A stretch of DNA of 50,046 nucleotides, taken from NCBI RefSeq assembly GCF_000337495.1, contig NZ_AOIS01000057.1, forward strand, positions 245,194 to 295,239, given 5' to 3'. This DNA is from Haloterrigena salina JCM 13891. Lineage in GTDB: Archaea > Halobacteriota > Halobacteria > Halobacteriales > Natrialbaceae. The translations under genes and the position numbers were made by a program. The notes beneath the pieces are model-generated. The model saw only the letters and a program-made list of their open reading frames with translations. It ran no database searches and was not told the DNA's origin. Shown piece by piece: positions 27,842 through 34,314 of the stretch (position 1 is the first letter of the stretch; each line of letters begins with the position of its first letter).

Positions 27842-28414
27842 CTATTCCTCAAGACGCTGTAGCAATTGGGCGACGTACGGACTGTCGTCCCAGCTTCGAT
27901 GCGGGCTAATCGTCGTGATCAGCGTCCTCGCTTCCGCTCGGGTTATGTGTCCGTTCCGGGCGTAGTCACAGATGAGCCGCGGCGTCGGCACGATCCGCGG
28001 TCCCTGGAGCACCGCGTGGATAAGCGGGAAGTTTGTCCCCCCAAATTCGTCGGTCAGAAAGCCGTCGATGTCGAGTGCGTTCGCGAGAACAATCCCATCG
28101 GTCTCTCCGTCATCGAGGCCGAACGTCGGCCGCGTGTTCGGTGTGTCGTCGCGCTCGTATGGATCCGCGATCGTGTAGTGGTTGCGGGCCGTGAGAACGT
28201 TGCTCGCAGCGGCGGCGTGGATGTCCTGATACTGCGTGATGTCGCGGAGTTCCGCGACGACTTCCGGTGGCACGAATGCGTCACACGACGTAAGGAGGTA
28301 CCGGAGCGGGTCCGGGACATCATCGGTGTCGGCGGCCGCGTCCGCACGGGGTACGGCGAGACTGACGAGTGCACTGGTGTCGGCAACGACCGTTCGCAGT
28401 CGCGGACCGCTCAT
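27842..28414 (-). CDS. PIN-domain protein, VapC-like toxin
   Basis: A 190-residue PIN-like nuclease. The first acidic residue is in 'VVADTSALVSLAV' near the N-terminus. The middle has 'FVPPEVVAELRDI', and the later acidic group lies in 'DDGETDGIVLANALDIDGFLTDEF'. This is the usual Asp-Glu-Asp order of metal-dependent ribonuclease toxins. The stop/start overlap (ATGA, 28411-28414) with the ribbon-helix-helix gene upstream makes a classic antitoxin-toxin operon. The C-terminal part beyond the PIN core ('PRLICDYARNGHITRAEAR') is longer than in compact VapC proteins. Its likely action is RNA cleavage when free of antitoxin; target unknown. Confidence 0.8.
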   Translation of the reverse strand: MSGPRLRTVVADTSALVSLAVPRADAAADTDDVPDPLRYLLTSCDAFVPPEVVAELRDITQYQDIHAAAASNVLTARNHYTIADPYERDDTPNTRPTFGLDDGETDGIVLANALDIDGFLTDEFGGTNFPLIHAVLQGPRIVPTPRLICDYARNGHITRAEARTLITTISPHRSWDDSPYVAQLLQRLEE

Positions 28415-28776
28415 CGATCGTCGTCTGCGGTGTCGACTGTGGTCGCGTCGTCCTCGTAGACATCGACATCATCGGGCGCGGCGAGATCGAACGGTTCGTC
28501 CTCGAGATCTGCCTTGAGCAGGCGTAGTCGCTGGGCGGTCTCAGCGCCCACCAGTTGCTTGACGGTCTCGAACTCGAGCTGGTCGTCGTAGTACTTCGTC
28601 GCGACTAACTCTTGGAAGGTCTCACTGTCGGCGGTCTCTTCGAGATACTCGCGGATAGCCTCGACGAGCAGGTCCGTTCGGTTCGTGTCGTAGAGCTCTG
28701 CAATCGCATCGAGACGTTCAACGAGATACTTGGGTGACTGGAAGTGAACCCGCCGCGGATCGTCACTCGCGCTCAT
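28411..28776 (-). CDS. ribbon-helix-helix antitoxin, VapB-like
   Basis: A 121-residue protein whose N-terminus has the ribbon-helix-helix pattern: 'RRVHFQSPKYLVERLDAIAE' then 'NRTDLLVEAIREYLEET'. An acidic C-terminal half likely embraces the toxin. I chose the ATG at 28776 over the upstream ATG at 28842: it fits the fold, and the palindromic operator at 28778-28800 would otherwise lie in the coding sequence. The toxin gene begins within its stop codon. Such antitoxins repress their own operon by binding palindromes over the promoter. Confidence 0.8.
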   Translation of the reverse strand: MSASDDPRRVHFQSPKYLVERLDAIAELYDTNRTDLLVEAIREYLEETADSETFQELVATKYYDDQLEFETVKQLVGAETAQRLRLLKADLEDEPFDLAAPDDVDVYEDDATTVDTADDDR

Positions 28777-28777
28777 T

Positions 28778-28800
28778 CTATGTGTGCATTCTGCACATAG
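28778..28800. promoter_or_regulatory. palindromic operator of the toxin-antitoxin operon
   Basis: CTATGTG and CACATAG form the outer arms, and TGTGCA-TTC-TGCACA is a perfect inverted repeat in the centre. The site lies directly before the antitoxin ATG (28776) and downstream of a TATA-like GTTATCC at about 28803-28809, so it covers the expected transcription start. This is the ideal place for autorepression by a ribbon-helix-helix protein. Confidence 0.6.
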
Positions 28801-28842
28801 ATGGATAACGGTTTCGGCGGATGCACAGGCCTTGCACACCAT

Positions 28843-29385
28843 CCCAACTCGACTACGTTGGGGTTGTCGGCGGGTAATAGCTCGTCTACCCCTCCGGCTG
28901 AATGAAGGTGATATCCTTCTATCGGACGAATCAGCGAATTGCGTTGCTGACTGTTTGGCGGCTACCCATCGCGACGAACAGGTCGACGAAACGCTCGAGA
29001 TTGGATAGGAACGCTAAGCGTCTGAGAGGATCAAAAGTCCCAGCGGGCCGGGGCAGACCCACGGGAACTGAGCGACGAGCTCGCGGTCAGGGGGAGGTGG
29101 GATGGTTGGATCGCTATGTCGCGTGGGAGAGGTACGCGACAGTAGAGATGGTCGGCGCAAGTACTATCAACCCAGCCACGATTCCAACACGCTCAGAATC
29201 GACTACGTAGACCCGGTCACTCGCGATCTCGAGGCAGTTACTCATCTGCTTGATCCGCTTGAGACGGGATCTCTCGACCCGTTGCGGGATCCTCCAGCGT
29301 GGTAACTCGGTCATACGGAAGCGATTGGATCGTGAAATAGAATATGGACATCTCAAACCTGAATAGTGGGGAATAGTTAGATTGT
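28843..29385. other. gene-poor stretch, about 540 bp
   Basis: No intact gene. A frame at 29102-29305 encodes 'GRRKYYQPSHDSN' and 'TRDLEAVTHLLDPLETGSLD' with haloarchaeal codon use. It looks like the C-terminal end of a lost protein, perhaps a helix-turn-helix regulator ending 'GRRKYY'. I cannot identify it. Confidence 0.35.
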
Positions 29386-29439
29386 TTAGAATAGTTGGTA
29401 TAGGAGAGATAGGTACAATAGGTGGAATAGGTGCGATAG
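29386..29439. repeat. array of six 9-bp repeats, left copy
   Basis: Six consecutive 9-mers of the form NNNNNATAG run without a gap (for example GTACAATAG, GTGGAATAG, GTGCGATAG). Two further GAATAG words lie just upstream (29361-29376). The reverse complement matches the array at 32631-32702, so the two arrays face each other across the orc1 region. Nine-base phasing is short of one helical turn. Candidate roles are a centromere (parS) or a site for an origin- or partition-linked protein. Confidence 0.65.
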
Positions 29440-29540
29440 CCCCCTATTGGAGCGAATGCCAGCGACAGGACAGTATCGTTCTGAAGGAGAATGGATAGCG
29501 GGAACGGTTCAATAACTCGACGACGGTGAAAAGTTACGTC

Positions 29541-29765
29541 TGCAACGGGTGGAGTTCCCTGTCTCCTTGAAGGAGGGCATGGCAGTCCGTGGTACGTGAT
29601 TTAGCCGAGAACGATTACGTATTCGTCCAATTCGGTCACAACGACGAGTAGCTTCGAAAGAACAGTGCACGACCGAAGAGGGATTCGGAGTCAACCTCGA
29701 GAGGTTCGTCGAAGAAACGCGGAAACAGAGGACAAAGCGTACGTTTGGCTGATCGATGGTTCACG
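29541..29765 (+). pseudogene. rhamnogalacturonan acetylesterase-like (SGNH) remnant
   Basis: In successive frames the plus strand encodes 'GWSSLS*RRAWQSVV' (equivalent to GGRSS...EG.W), 'DLAENDYVFVQFGHNDE' (the conserved block III of SGNH/GDSL esterases) followed by a stop, and then 'GFGVNLERFVEETRKQ'. These follow the order of rhamnogalacturonan acetylesterases. Frameshifts, stops and missing ends show it is dead. Its presence hints at past pectin degradation and fits the sugar-acid genes at 39-50 kb. Confidence 0.6.
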
Positions 29766-29928
29766 GATGTATTATTCTATCCAGTACTAGCGGCCATCAG
29801 GGGGACACAGGTCCACACTTGAGAGAACATCTTCCTTGATGTAACGGATCGATTCCGATACGCTCGTCTGTTTCGGATTCGGCGATTCGCACGGAAATCG
29901 ACGGACAGCGAACTCGTCCCCCCTCCCA

Positions 29929-30163
29929 CCCCCCGTGTGCGATATGAATTGGCCGCGGTCGAACGGATGGGACACCGTGTGAGAGATGAATTGGTTGCGA
30001 TCGAGCGAACGAGACCCCGTGTGCGAGATGAATTAGCCTCGGTTGGAAGGGTAACACCCCGTGTGCGAGATGAATCGACTGCGGGCGAACGAATGAGACC
30101 CCATGTGCGAGATGAATTTCGGGGTTCGCTCAGGGTAGGCCCCGTGTGCGATATGAATTGGAT
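29929..30163. repeat. origin-type repeats: six copies at 41-42 bp spacing (plus one weak copy)
   Basis: The unit CCGTGTGCGAGATGAAT occurs in the same orientation, starting at 29933, 29975, 30017, 30059, 30101 and 30142. Intervals are 42, 42, 42, 42 and 41 bp, that is, four helical turns. A degenerate copy begins near 30203. Spacers also share a pattern (GCGGTCGAACGAATGAGA-like), so this is an imperfect 42-bp tandem repeat. The same unit occurs upstream of orc1 at 31629, 31747 and 31870 and inverted at 32232-32253. Position and sharing mark it as the binding site of the Orc1/Cdc6 protein encoded between the two groups. Confidence 0.75.
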
Positions 30164-30240
30164 GACCTGTTATTCCCGACTACTGTAAGAGGTCCACGAC
30201 TACTGTGTGAGAGATAGAATCACTTGTTACTCGACAGCAG

Positions 30241-31587
30241 TCAGTTCCCTTCGAAGAAGTCGTTGATCTGCGCATTGACGACGGACTCGATCAATTCTTC
30301 GTTGTTCTCGATTTCCTCGAGGCGGATATCCTCCTGCAGCGTTTCCGCGACGACCGACGGATCGTCCACGAAGGTGTACTCCTTGTGGACGCCGCTTCCG
30401 TAGCCGCGGCCGCGTTTCTCCGAGGTGACGAAGTTGTACGTCTCGGCTTCGGTCATATACCGGAGATACGAGTCGCGAGACTTCTGATCAGCATCGAGGA
30501 GATCCGCGATGTACTGGTAGACGCGAAACGCCACCGTGCTGGGAACGGCGTTGAGGTTCCGGTTCGAATAGACCGGAACGATCGCCGTCGCATAGAGGGA
30601 GAGTTTCTTTTGCGTCGAAAGCCCCTGCATTTGCGTGAGCGTCCGGTCGCGTTCGGCTTCCTTCTGGGCGTCTCGAACGTGTTCCTCGCGGACCGTCCCC
30701 TCGCCTTGTCGGTCGGCCAGTTCGCCCGCTTTTCGGAAGAGATCGATCGCTTTCCGCGCGTCCCCGTGGTCCTGTGCCGCAAACGCGGAACTGAGCGGGA
30801 TAATCCCGTCCGCGAGGACGTCGTCGCGATACGCGTCGCGGCGTCGATCCAGGATCGCCTGCAACTGATTCGCGTCGTAGTCGGGAAAGACCACGTCCTG
30901 CGGATTGAACGAACTCTCCGCTCGACCGTCGAGGTTCTCCATGAACCGCGGGTCGTTCGTCAGCGCAGCGACGGAGATGTCGCCCTCGATCCGACCGAGT
31001 TGTGAGGCTCGAGAGAGCTGGTAGAGGAGTTTCGAGTAGGCGGGTTCGTCATTCGGGTCCCGCTGGCGGCCGACCAGAAGGTCGACCTCGTCGAGAATGA
31101 TGATAACCGAATCGAAGTACTCGCTCAACAGTTCGTAGAACCGACGGAGTTTCTGATCGGTAGAGATACCGCTCTCGGGAATCTCGGCCGCAACTCCGGC
31201 CTCGGCGGCGGCGTTTTCGACGAGGCGATAGACGGCACGGTCGTGGGATTTGATCGTCTGACAGTTGATCTGGACGACGCCGAACCGGATGTCTTGGGCC
31301 GTCGCGAGGTCGGAGACCTGTTCGCAGACGGCGTTGATGATCAGCGACTTGCCGGTTCCCGACGGGCCGTAGAGGAGCATGTTCGGCGGGCGATTGCTCT
31401 GAAGGATCGGTCGGAGATACGTGATGATATCGTCCAACTGTTGATCGCGACCGACGATTCGATCCTCATCGATGACGGTATCTGGATCAAGCAACGCCTT
31501 CTCTCGAAAGACGGAGTTTTGTACCCCCTCCTGAAGACGACCTTTGATAGACTGGGAGAGAGACTGTTGGTCGTTGCCATCAGTCAT
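30241..31587 (-). CDS. orc1: Orc1/Cdc6 replication initiator
   Basis: A 448-residue AAA+ protein. Walker A is 'GPSGTGKS' at 74-81, Walker B is 'IIILDEVDLL' with Asp166-Glu167, sensor 1 is 'ALTNDPRF', and 'GDARKAIDLFRKAGELA' is sensor 2. The C-terminal winged helix includes 'YLRYMTEAETYNFVTSEKRG'. It binds origin repeats and loads the MCM helicase. I set the start at 31587, not at the upstream in-frame ATG (31743). The AAA+ core is complete from there, and a TATA-like ATAAATAAAT at 31611-31620 lies 28 bp upstream. Matching repeats on both sides of the gene make it the cognate initiator of this origin. Its length is somewhat above the chromosomal Orc1 proteins. Confidence 0.93.
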   Translation of the reverse strand: MTDGNDQQSLSQSIKGRLQEGVQNSVFREKALLDPDTVIDEDRIVGRDQQLDDIITYLRPILQSNRPPNMLLYGPSGTGKSLIINAVCEQVSDLATAQDIRFGVVQINCQTIKSHDRAVYRLVENAAAEAGVAAEIPESGISTDQKLRRFYELLSEYFDSVIIILDEVDLLVGRQRDPNDEPAYSKLLYQLSRASQLGRIEGDISVAALTNDPRFMENLDGRAESSFNPQDVVFPDYDANQLQAILDRRRDAYRDDVLADGIIPLSSAFAAQDHGDARKAIDLFRKAGELADRQGEGTVREEHVRDAQKEAERDRTLTQMQGLSTQKKLSLYATAIVPVYSNRNLNAVPSTVAFRVYQYIADLLDADQKSRDSYLRYMTEAETYNFVTSEKRGRGYGSGVHKEYTFVDDPSVVAETLQEDIRLEEIENNEELIESVVNAQINDFFEGN

Positions 31588-31604
31588 AGTATCGGAATAA
31601 CGGC

Positions 31605-31620
31605 CAGCCCATAAATAAAT
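31605..31620 (-). promoter_or_regulatory. TATA box of orc1
   Basis: The plus-strand ATAAATAAAT (31611-31620) reads ATTTATTTAT on the minus strand and is centred 28 bp from the ATG at 31587. This implies a leaderless transcript and decides the start. The origin-type repeat at 31629 abuts it, so Orc1 may repress its own gene. Confidence 0.5.
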
Positions 31621-31628
31621 GTGGGATA

Positions 31629-31895
31629 CCGTGTGCGAGGTTAAATGTAGAAGAATGTCGAGATAGAAGCCTTCTATCGCAGGATGGTTAGATAGTCCGA
31701 TAACCGTGGGCAAAATCAAACCGGACTGAATGCGGGATGGCACACCCCGTGTGCGAAATGAAATCCGTCTCGACCGATCGGGTGCAAGTCTGAAAGCGGA
31801 TCACAAGGGGAGAAGAGTAGATCAGAGGGAGAAACATAGTTATGGAGAAGGGAATCGAACCCCCTCCCCCCGTGTGCGAGATGAAATCCGTTCGA
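31629..31895. repeat. origin-type repeats upstream of orc1 (three plus-orientation copies)
   Basis: Copies begin at 31629 (CCGTGTGCGAGG, partial), 31747 and 31870. The latter two share the longer form CCGTGTGCGARATGAAATCCG. Unlike the array downstream of orc1 they are spaced by about 120 bp. With the inverted copy at 32232-32253 they bracket the AT-rich core. Confidence 0.65.
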
Positions 31896-32060
31896 GGGTG
31901 GGGGAGGGGGGTGGCGGTGTTAGCAGCATGAGCGGGCGCAATTCGGGAATCTCTGAGAAAGAGCGGTTCTACACTAGATATAAGAATTAGTCTATATGCT
32001 AGGGAAGATTTATAATGGCAGGCTAGAAACAGTAACCGCACTGCAACTAGCCTTGGAGAA

Positions 32061-32092
32061 CAGATATTGACTATAACTATAGTTAATATCTG
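32061..32092. repeat. AT-rich 32-bp palindrome in the origin core
   Basis: The left arm CAGATATTGACTATA and right arm TATAGTTAATATCTG are separated by two bases. One position in the arms is mismatched. It sits in the lowest-GC part of the region, midway between oppositely oriented origin repeats. It could be the duplex-unwinding element or a site for another regulator. Confidence 0.6.
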
Positions 32093-32231
32093 TCGTCGAA
32101 GAAGATTCTTAGCGTAACCAAATCTCGAGCACGGCGTTTTAGCAACTCATAGTAGCTAAAGCAGGATTCTAGAAACTCTTCCCAACTTCAGCCCTTCCGA
32201 TCTCGATCAACGGTCCCCTCTCGGTCTCACC

Positions 32232-32253
32232 GATTTCATTTCGCACACGGGGT
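32232..32253 (-). repeat. inverted origin-type repeat
   Basis: On the plus strand the sequence reads GATTTCATTTCGCACACGGG. Its reverse complement is the origin unit CCCGTGTGCGAAATGAAATC. It faces the plus-orientation copies at 31747 and 31870 across the AT-rich core, giving the convergent arrangement expected of an origin. Confidence 0.65.
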
Positions 32254-32630
32254 GGGGGTGTCCCCTCACTACTCATCTCTTCCTCTCTTTCCAAGGGCTC
32301 TTCTCGAAAGGAGGTTTCCCTAGATACGTTGGAGTCGACTATGTTGTGATCCTCGCCGCTCTCCGTATCGATCCAGGCTCTCGGTGAGTCCGTTGATTTC
32401 CGTCTTGAATAATAGTTGTCTGAGGTCGGTAATCACGCTCGAGACTTCCCTCGAGTTCCAGCCCTGCGTTCCTGTGATTAATCCTCGGAAATGGTAATAG
32501 AGAAATAGTGCAGCATGGTCTCCACCTCTGATGACTTCGTTGCTCGATTCTTCACTTACTACTACCATCTTGGACGGATATCTCCCTACAATAGGTACCT
32601 TTCTTCCAATAGGTTCTTCCCCCACCTTCC

Positions 32631-32702
32631 CTATTACACCTACCGGGGCTATCTGTGCTATTGCACCTATTCTTCCTATTGCACCTATTCAACCTACCTT
32701 AG
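32631..32702. repeat. array of eight 9-bp repeats, right copy
   Basis: Eight adjacent 9-mers start with CTAT or CTAC (for example CTATTGCAC twice, CTATTCTTC, CTATTCAAC). They run without gap just upstream of parA. More AATAGG words lie on both sides (about 32588-32615 and 32780). The array is the reverse complement type of the one at 29386-29439. The location between origin and parA suggests a partition site or parA operator. Confidence 0.65.
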
Positions 32703-32815
32703 TTCCAGTAGGTAGAATTAAGGTTCTATAGCAGAATCTAATCACCACCGGCTGAAATAGAACAATTCAGAACAATAGGTCCCTATTCCGGCCCTCTCAG
32801 CGGGTGAACGCGATA

Positions 32816-33706
32816 ATGAACGACACAACGTCCGAGCCACGCGCCGTAAGCGTGGTCATCCTGAAAGGTGGCGTCGGCAAATCAACGACCTCGATGAATC
32901 TGGCTCGTCAACTCGCCGAGCGCGGAACGACCCTCTTCGCCGACCTCGACCCGAACGGTCACGCGACGAACGGTCTCGGCTTCGAGGACGCGTACCAGGG
33001 CGAGACCAATCTCGGGGACGTCATTCTCGAGGGGACGGCGACTCCCCACGACCTGATTCGCCCGACCGATCACGGGTTCGATCTCCTCCCGTCGTCGGAT
33101 ACGCTCGAGGACGTCGAGAAAGACCTCGCGGGCGCGATGCAGGGTTCGGCGCGAATCAAGTCGAAGATCGTCGATCCGCTGCTGGGCGACGAGTACGACT
33201 ACGTGGTCTTCGACTGTCCGGCGTATCCGGGGATGCTCAACAACAATGCACTCGTCGCGACGGGGAACGTGATGATCCCGATCGAACCCGGCTCGAGTGC
33301 GATCGGTGGCTACAAGCGAACGATGGAACGGCTCATCGAGCCGGCGCGGGAGTACATCGACGTCGACGTCCTCGCCGTCGTGCCGAACAAACTCGGTGAC
33401 CGAATCGATCAACAGACCGAGGACCGAGAACTCCTCGAGAATCTGAACACCGCGACCTACGAGGTCAATCCCGATCAGCCGCTGCAGGAAGCGGTGCCGG
33501 AGTTCGCCCGGATCACGGCGGAGGAGTTCGACGAGATCGACGCCGGCGAGATGACGCCACCGAAGCCGGGCATCCGCCATCGGTCGGCGCTGTCGCGATC
33601 CTTACAGCACAACCAACCGCTGCAGGATTACGACCCGGAGAACGACCAGATCGCCTGTTACGAGCAACTCGCCGAAATCGTCGCCGCCGGAGGGATCGAG
33701 CGATGA
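32816..33706 (+). CDS. parA: ParA-type partition ATPase
   Basis: A 296-residue deviant-Walker ATPase. 'KGGVGKST' at 17-24 has the signature first lysine. 'FADLDPNGHATNGLG' is the second Asp motif, and 'YDYVVFDCPAYPGMLNNNAL' is Walker B-like. Related proteins segregate plasmids and secondary chromosomes by forming gradients on nucleoid DNA. The ATG at 32816 is preferred over GTG 32804 because the conserved part begins just after. The 9-bp array upstream is a candidate centromere or operator. Its stop overlaps the next gene by four bases (ATGA). No ParB is visible; the overlapping acidic protein takes that place. Confidence 0.92.
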   Translation: MNDTTSEPRAVSVVILKGGVGKSTTSMNLARQLAERGTTLFADLDPNGHATNGLGFEDAYQGETNLGDVILEGTATPHDLIRPTDHGFDLLPSSDTLEDVEKDLAGAMQGSARIKSKIVDPLLGDEYDYVVFDCPAYPGMLNNNALVATGNVMIPIEPGSSAIGGYKRTMERLIEPAREYIDVDVLAVVPNKLGDRIDQQTEDRELLENLNTATYEVNPDQPLQEAVPEFARITAEEFDEIDAGEMTPPKPGIRHRSALSRSLQHNQPLQDYDPENDQIACYEQLAEIVAAGGIER

Positions 33707-34314
33707 GCAACCCGTTCGACGATCTCAAGGAAACCGAAACGGAGTCGCCCGAGTCGGACGATTCAGAGACTCCTGAGAACGATCCGGAGGCACCTGAAGA
33801 CAATCCGGAACCGATCGGGAACGACTCGGAGACGTCCGATACTGAATCCGCGACCGCGGTCGAGTCGACGACCGACGTCGCGGACGCTCCGACCGCTCGC
33901 TCGACGGAAACGCCCACCGAATCGTCGACGGTGGCAACTCCCGACACGAGTACGAGCAATGAATCTACGTCGGAGACGAGCGCCGAACCGGTCGCGGACA
34001 CGCCCGTTGACCGCAGCGAACCCACTGAGTCCGAGTCTGAATCGGATGCCGCCGAACCGGTCTCGCCCGCGGAGACGGGGCCGGCGTTCGAATACAGCGC
34101 GGTCAAACAGAAGCCGTTCTACGCTCGGAACGAGACGGTAGCCGAATTCGAGAACGCGATCCGGACGACGATCCTCCCGACGCTCGCCCGAGCGGAGGTG
34201 CTCGACGAGGAAACCCGCGAGATTCACGATGCGGTGCTCCGCCTGGCGAACGAACAGCCGGAACGGGTCGCCGAACTCGTGCTCGAAGAGCGGCGCCGGT
34301 CCGGTGAACCGTAA
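33703..34314 (+). CDS. acidic ParA-partner protein, unknown family
   Basis: A 203-residue protein translated from a start overlapping the parA stop. The first 125 residues or so are a disordered acidic Thr/Ser/Glu/Asp/Pro-rich tract. The C-terminal 75 residues look folded and helical: 'FEYSAVKQKPFYARNETVAE', 'TTILPTLARAEVLDEETREI' and 'LVLEERRRSGEP'. I see no ParB/KorB or ribbon-helix-helix motif. In haloarchaeal plasmids the gene after parA is often such a hypothetical. By position it is the adaptor that links ParA to DNA, perhaps through the C-terminal part, but this is inference. It could be DNA-binding through the basic 'EERRR' tail. Confidence 0.75.
   Translation: MSNPFDDLKETETESPESDDSETPENDPEAPEDNPEPIGNDSETSDTESATAVESTTDVADAPTARSTETPTESSTVATPDTSTSNESTSETSAEPVADTPVDRSEPTESESESDAAEPVSPAETGPAFEYSAVKQKPFYARNETVAEFENAIRTTILPTLARAEVLDEETREIHDAVLRLANEQPERVAELVLEERRRSGEP

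Follow-up and report, generated by a model that had tools for sequence, protein, structure and literature searches.

What do two arrays of a 9-bp repeat do when they lie on either side of an orc1/cdc6 gene, and one of them next to a parA gene? This question is raised by a stretch of 50,046 nucleotides of Haloterrigena salina JCM 13891 (positions 245,194 to 295,239 of contig NZ_AOIS01000057.1, called C57 below), which is referred to as the window. We propose, as the likely answer, that the arrays are the centromere (parS) and the promoter-operator of a haloarchaeal ParA-type plasmid partition system, bound by a partner protein encoded directly after parA. The features of the proposed system are as follows:

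32583..32714, plus strand: parA-proximal array, proposed centromere and operator (scan score 54.6 nats; C57 277776-277907)
29370..29440, minus strand: left array, a satellite of the 9-bp unit downstream of orc1 (42.8 nats; C57 274563-274633)
32774..32787, no strand assigned: inverted unit pair AATAGGT-C-CCTATT between array and parA start, proposed operator (from sequence)
32816..33706, plus strand: parA, ParA-family Walker ATPase (Pfam AAA_31, E 1.2e-29; KGG.GK[ST] motif in an alignment of 13)
33703..34314, plus strand: partner gene overlapping the parA stop, proposed centromere-binding protein (alignments, models)

Two arrays with an exact 9-bp period

An earlier sequence-only reading had placed a left array at 29386-29439, and six ATAG words do stand there at exact 9-bp spacing, the first at 29391. 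The right array, which it had described as eight repeats at 32631-32702, has its eight 9-bp steps, but the words are not all alike: six are CTAT, five of them unbroken from 32649, and two are CTAC (32640 and 32694). A scan with a trained model (described below) widens both arrays to the limits given above. Read unit by unit, the right array consists mainly of ACCTATTGT-type units on the plus strand, with some units of opposite orientation at its upstream end. It abuts parA only loosely, a gap of about 100 bp, in which the inverted unit pair lies, separating its end from the ATG at 32816.

The arrays are real and far beyond chance. At spacings of 5-15 bp other than 9, no run of ATAG or CTAT in the window exceeds two words; 9-bp runs never exceeded two in 200 first-order Markov simulations of the window; and when all 256 four-letter words were tested, the five longest 9-bp runs of the window fell within these arrays. 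A three-word pattern searched in the whole 4.84-Mb assembly gave eight matches, all on C57 (seven in the left and right arrays, one elsewhere on that contig), against none for the reversed control.

The array accompanies parA in related haloarchaea

A tblastn search with the partner protein returned 60 plasmid records among the matches listed, all of them haloarchaeal. A ParA-family or AAA ATPase gene stands directly before the partner gene in 25 of 26 annotated plasmid regions (in L019 the partner is unannotated and was recognised by hidden Markov model), pHTS138 being the exception, and a scan of species genomes found a ParA-like frame directly upstream of the partner at 35 of 35 loci, three of these frames being truncated or broken. 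On pHTS138 (L157, 1-2743) an annotated ParA gene is followed by a small gene and, about 1.8 kb on, by a partner gene after a short hypothetical gene; this partner locus is perhaps a decayed second module.

The arrays were studied in 43 parA-partner loci: the window itself, the plasmid regions L011-L022 (12 in number) and 30 loci from the scan. The other five scan loci were dropped, namely L062 and L084 (truncated parA), L087 (broken parA) and L069 and L078 (duplicate plasmids of L017 and L020). A circular, nine-state model reading both strands was trained on the sequence preceding parA (at most 700 bp) in 39 loci. The consensus of the tandem 9-bp unit is ACCTATTGT, in both orientations, and by the full model an array stands just upstream of parA in 41 of the 43 loci, with its near end 99-138 bp before the parA start; L022 (Haloferax) and L083 are the two loci without it. 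The arrays reach up to about 30 units' worth of sequence, as in L058 (-438 to -104).

The following lines of evidence establish the period and its place. First, over the 39 loci the model gains 1909 nats at period 9, and 49, 204 and 153 nats at periods 8, 10 and 11. Second, fits started at random on one third of the loci converge to rotations of ACCTATTGT with about 640 nats (641) at period 9, the best result among periods 7, 8, 10, 11 and 12 being 186 nats (period 12). Third, a motif-free measure, the identity of pooled parA upstream regions with themselves, is 0.377, 0.374, 0.348 and 0.337 at lags 9, 18, 27 and 36, and 0.22-0.28 at other lags. Fourth, among 33 lags, lag 9 is one of the top three in 39/43 upstream regions, in 7/43 regions taken 1.5 kb downstream and in 1/43 parA coding regions. 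Fifth, in a two-fold cross-validation 41 of 42 held-out loci exceeded 5 nats, and no reversed or shuffled sequence did; the sole failure was Haloferax larsenii, whose array uses another word. Sixth, a survey of 61 genomes of the family found the partner in 34; 30 loci were fetched, one of which had too little upstream sequence, and the remaining 29 all scored above 10 nats (reversed, none); this set is not fully independent, as it contains the window and species near to those used in training. The exact three-word pattern occurs in 8 of the 12 plasmids (31 matches, against one in the control).

In the pooled upstream regions there are also weaker identity peaks at lags 4-5, 13-14, 22-23 and 31-32, that is, at half-unit offsets, which may reflect a partial symmetry inside the unit.

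That such arrays are neutral tandem repeats left by replication slippage would fit with the varying length of orthologous arrays, but is scarcely credible, since one unit is found at a constant distance from parA in different genera and again in the held-out loci, the unit cores are conserved while the other positions vary, and arrays of unrelated words still have period 9.

orc1 and the origin repeats are neighbours

Between the two arrays of the window lie the following neighbours, which we place outside the proposed system:

30241..31587, minus strand: orc1/cdc6 (Pfam Cdc6_lid, Cdc6_C)
29931..32250, no strand assigned: block of origin recognition box (ORB)-like repeats, GTGTGCGAnATGAA, around orc1 (sequence matches)

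Matches to the ORB-like repeat lie at 29935, 29977, 30019, 30061, 30144, 31749 and 31872, with one on the opposite strand at 32235 and a looser match at 31631. As first described, the arrays stand on either side of orc1 and of the ORB-like repeats detected in the window (29935 to about 32250). This enclosure is not general. An Orc1-like frame was found in 15 of the 43 loci, the other 28 carrying parA without such a frame, in stretches that extend from parA by about 0.6-6 kb on the upstream side and 2.5-8 kb on the downstream side (more in the window), so that an Orc1 or an array farther away would be missed. Within this scope, an array on the far side of orc1 from parA was seen only in the window and in pHTUR02 (L012), i.e., in 2 of 15 loci. 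We therefore do not accept the two-armed bracket around orc1 as general. The left array is also lacking in pHTS280.6, the closest complete plasmid found; the array on the parA side is conserved (41/43), the pairing is not. The arrays accompany parA, not orc1.

These counts bear on the view that the arrays are replication elements, either Orc1 iterons or handcuffing or copy-control sites flanking the origin. The window and pHTUR02, with arrays on both sides of orc1 and its origin repeats, speak for it. We nevertheless regard it as very unlikely, because arrays occur with parA in the 28 loci lacking an Orc1-like frame nearby, orc1 is so seldom bracketed, the origin repeats differ in sequence from the arrays, and the array word follows the partner. 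Handcuffing or copy control through Orc1, one of the options of the sequence-only reading, is unsupported; its centromere option is the best supported of those it offered.

Satellite arrays and the proposed operator

A scan of the entire C57 contig detected four arrays of 41-55 nats, at 128920-128994, 176951-177017, 274563-274633 (the left array) and 277776-277907 (the parA array), while the reversed segments listed reached at most 21.0 nats, a Markov sequence gave none and another contig of the assembly, C54, gave up to 20.4. The left array is therefore one of several satellites, two of which lie about 100 and 149 kb away from the parA array. In pHTS280.6, whose main syntenic blocks are mostly 90-96% identical, there are three arrays, and alignment of the flanking DNA shows that the two not next to parA correspond to the two distant arrays of C57 (both flanks align for one, at least one flank for the other), although the units of these orthologous satellites differ in sequence and number. 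A left-like array is also present in pHTUR02. In pHALXA01, of which 400 of 437 kb were scanned, the parA cluster is accompanied by a clear satellite at 361338 (35.8 nats) and by weaker ones at 263452 (22.2 nats) and 384019 (20.0 nats), which barely exceed the controls.

Beside the left array, two small adjoining minus-strand genes (27842-28842), one with a sub-threshold ribbon-helix-helix (RHH) match (E 0.0056), recall a toxin-antitoxin arrangement.

An inverted pair AATAGGT-N-CCTATT, with up to three mismatches, is found in 37 of the 43 loci, as compared to 0.7 expected from shuffles. Because this pair sits between the array and the start codon, we infer that the parA operon may regulate itself. 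One could go further and regard the arrays as transcriptional operators alone, the partner autorepressing the parA operon, distant arrays serving other genes and the partition site being elsewhere. The main array and the inverted pair do fall within the parA upstream region, and the 129-kb array of C57 sits in a gap between coding stretches. Yet some 30 units, the length that arrays can reach, is much for an operator, and satellites are found again in orthologous positions although the units inside them change; besides, the two roles are not exclusive, the sites of omega/delta and ParG acting as operator and centromere alike. We hold the operator-only view to be improbable, if less so than a replication role.

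Constant pitch, changing word and the partner

When single loci were fitted without a prior, 16 of 19 clearly favoured period 9 over other periods and over shuffled sequence, with words of their own: ACAATTTGT in Haloferax larsenii, ACGATTCGT and a variant in two Haladaptatus plasmids, ACGAACTCT in Halorussus, and words containing GTAGCT in Halobaculum, strain DL31 and Natrialba magadii. The same genome as the window holds, on C54 (parA start near 55845, minus strand; L161), a second ParA-partner module with its own period-9 array, of a GTTTACACC-like word, which the model of the window does not recognise. In three of four pairs of plasmids from the same cell the model of either plasmid scored below 0 on the other, the fourth pair, of Natrinema thermotolerans, being intermediate (9.0 and 8.9 nats), and the similar modules of two Haladaptatus species recognised each other's arrays.

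The word is associated with the type of partner: partner identity and unit similarity are correlated over 53 loci (Spearman 0.65; 0 of 2000 permutations), these being 42 of the 43 (L055 left out) plus 11, with L151-L153 (no period) and L157 excluded. The short partner segment before the first helix varies with the word, for example KQ[KR]P accompanying CTATT, DLRRS accompanying ATTCG, and TTAKS or TEKKT accompanying the Haloferax and C54 words. This association supports the binding of the repeats by the partner, and the same-cell pairs are the stronger argument of the two.

Alignments of the partner show a conserved start (NPFDDL in Natrialbaceae), followed by an acidic linker and a C-terminal domain that is conserved as well. 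The partner has no Pfam match at E≤0.1, and none of ParB type was obtained in 12 relatives at E≤1; it is thus not of the helix-turn-helix ParB/CTPase class by its domains. The best Pfam/NCBIfam matches (E 0.005-0.009) look like acidic low-complexity similarity, and the best PDB sequence match, a designed cytochrome trimer (E 0.0046, no passing stretch), is not credible. Two AlphaFold2 models (mean predicted local distance difference test, pLDDT, 78.5 and 83.9) show three confident helices and a poorly defined preceding segment; neither had a Foldseek match in the PDB at E≤10. The best match in a viral library was E 3.4, no relative was found in the viral contigs scanned, and hhalign detected no similarity between the partner and the RHH_1 proteins of its own genome (11 loci; one extract was empty and one was not RHH-like in the reading frame used). 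We suspect an RHH fold from the strand-like K/R-Q-x-P-x-Y-A-R segment before a helix, and an RHH dimer is plausible by analogy, knowing that a monomer model cannot reveal an intertwined dimer.

Partner genes are also seen on five chromosome-size contigs (G038:C1:3594271, G054:C1:3559120, G063:C1:3630544, G072:C1:2448005 and G086:C1:2598160), and arrays lie upstream in the four of these loci that were fetched (L181, L198, L201 and L202); the system may also serve chromosomes, or have moved into them. In a Haloterrigena alkaliphila plasmid (L014, 5971-8066), genes annotated as rdfA and as an archaea-specific SMC-related protein lie a few kb past the parA-partner module.

Comparison with known partition systems

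The mode of action that best explains the arrays would resemble that of the bacterial delta/omega or ParF/ParG systems. As far as the accessible parts of the cited papers describe them, the similarities and differences are as follows. First, the RHH protein omega of pSM19035 recognises 7-bp repeats set in arrays, at least four contiguous repeats being needed to activate its ParA (PMC9499535). Its contiguous, short, non-palindromic units of mixed orientation, its several arrays per plasmid, their overlap with the ParA-gene promoter and its small ParA with a small separate binding protein are like those seen here, whereas its unit is a 7-bp WATCACW, its RHH omega is proven and it is bacterial (PMC9499535). 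The haloarchaeal unit has 9 bp, period 7 giving 25 nats against the 641 of period 9, so the arrays are not omega heptads; and the partner differs from omega by its long acidic linker and by having no fold relative in our searches. Second, TP228 ParF/ParG/parH has short degenerate words with spacers, and a ParG that coats the site, represses its own operon and combines a flexible N-terminal extension with a C-terminal DNA-binding domain, a layout like that of the partner; it differs by its tetramer boxes, AT-rich spacers and RHH ParG (PMC7308502), to which we found no sequence or fold match of the partner. Third, SegAB of the Sulfolobales has an archaeal ParA-type ATPase, an overlapping downstream gene for an archaea-specific DNA-binding protein, and sites of which some precede the operon and others are dispersed across the replicon (PMC12284271, PMC5120986). 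It is chromosomal, however, its site is a 13-bp palindrome and its SegB is RHH (PMC12284271, PMC5120986); the PDB sequence matches of the partner did not include SegB, and the unit ACCTATTGT is tandem, the SegB consensus itself not having been searched for. Fourth, AspA-ParB-ParA of pNOB8 is an archaeal plasmid partition system with a DNA-binding protein that coats DNA helically, but has three proteins, a winged-helix AspA and a single 23-bp palindrome with spreading (PMC5120986).

That the arrays match no described element, as the sequence-only reading had it, agrees with our literature search, where no title or abstract beginning in open access, among the matches listed, describes them; most subscription journals lie outside this scope, and an earlier description is possible. 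The accessible parts of the surveys of haloarchaeal origins (PMC3528665) and plasmids (PMC10818511), of the Haloferax volcanii genome paper (PMC2841640) and of reviews on replication (PMC7776575) and the cell cycle (PMC7617429) mention no such arrays.

Proposed mechanism and significance

We propose that the 9-bp units are the binding sites of the partner, which would coat the arrays in regular helical order. In B-DNA a 9-bp step would turn each next partner by about 309 degrees, and the coat would be left-handed. ParA-ATP bound to the nucleoid would capture the partner-array complex, probably through the N-terminal region of the partner, and move the megaplasmid, while the array upstream of parA and the nearer inverted unit pair would let the partner regulate its own operon. 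The additional arrays of the plasmid, including the left one, may be extra centromere sites that add capture points. Each module family would have its own word on the common 9-bp pitch, and plasmids sharing a cell would therefore be sorted independently. More tentatively, and with the odds somewhat against it, haloarchaeal megaplasmids might share a centromere code, in which a fixed pitch organises the helical coat of a new partner family, a freely evolving word gives each plasmid an address of its own in the cell, and dispersed satellites make the plasmid multi-centromeric.

Several points weigh against the partition system proposed here. First, in the H. salina assembly the two-unit pattern CTATT-N4-CTATT has two matches on C54 beside seven on C57, nine in all, and its reversed control has six. 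Second, in 33 related whole genomes (the 35 of the scan loci without L062 and L087) the exact three-word pattern gave 68 matches against 40 in the reversed control, and because of this weak enrichment it is by itself no clean, usable genome-wide marker. Third, the left array is missing in pHTS280.6, where the synteny break falls inside it and about 3.4 kb with an IS6 transposase replace 450 bp of window sequence. Fourth, the partner matches no known DNA-binding fold by Pfam, NCBIfam, PDB sequence, Foldseek or hhalign. Fifth, no clear 9-bp period is seen at three loci that possess both ParA and partner, L151 of Haloarcula, L152 of Halorubrum and L153 of Haloplanus, which also stand outside the correlation of partner and word. 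Sixth, common descent would also produce that correlation. The weak whole-genome pattern and the three loci without the period lower our confidence both in the partition system and in the shared code. Upstream of parA, L151-L153 carry the words GAATAG and CTATTC in either orientation, which may be a palindromic form of the site.

Attachment sites of this kind for plasmid partition are hardly known in archaea, and the accessible part of a 2016 review lists the form of archaeal chromosome and plasmid centromeres, clustered versus dispersed, as open (PMC5120986). The arrays provide concrete candidate sites on the megaplasmids of many haloarchaeal genera, for which a candidate binding protein and naturally differing specificities are also at hand. 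If the proposal is correct, they would supply stability elements for haloarchaeal vectors, and would help to explain how several megaplasmids coexist in polyploid haloarchaea.

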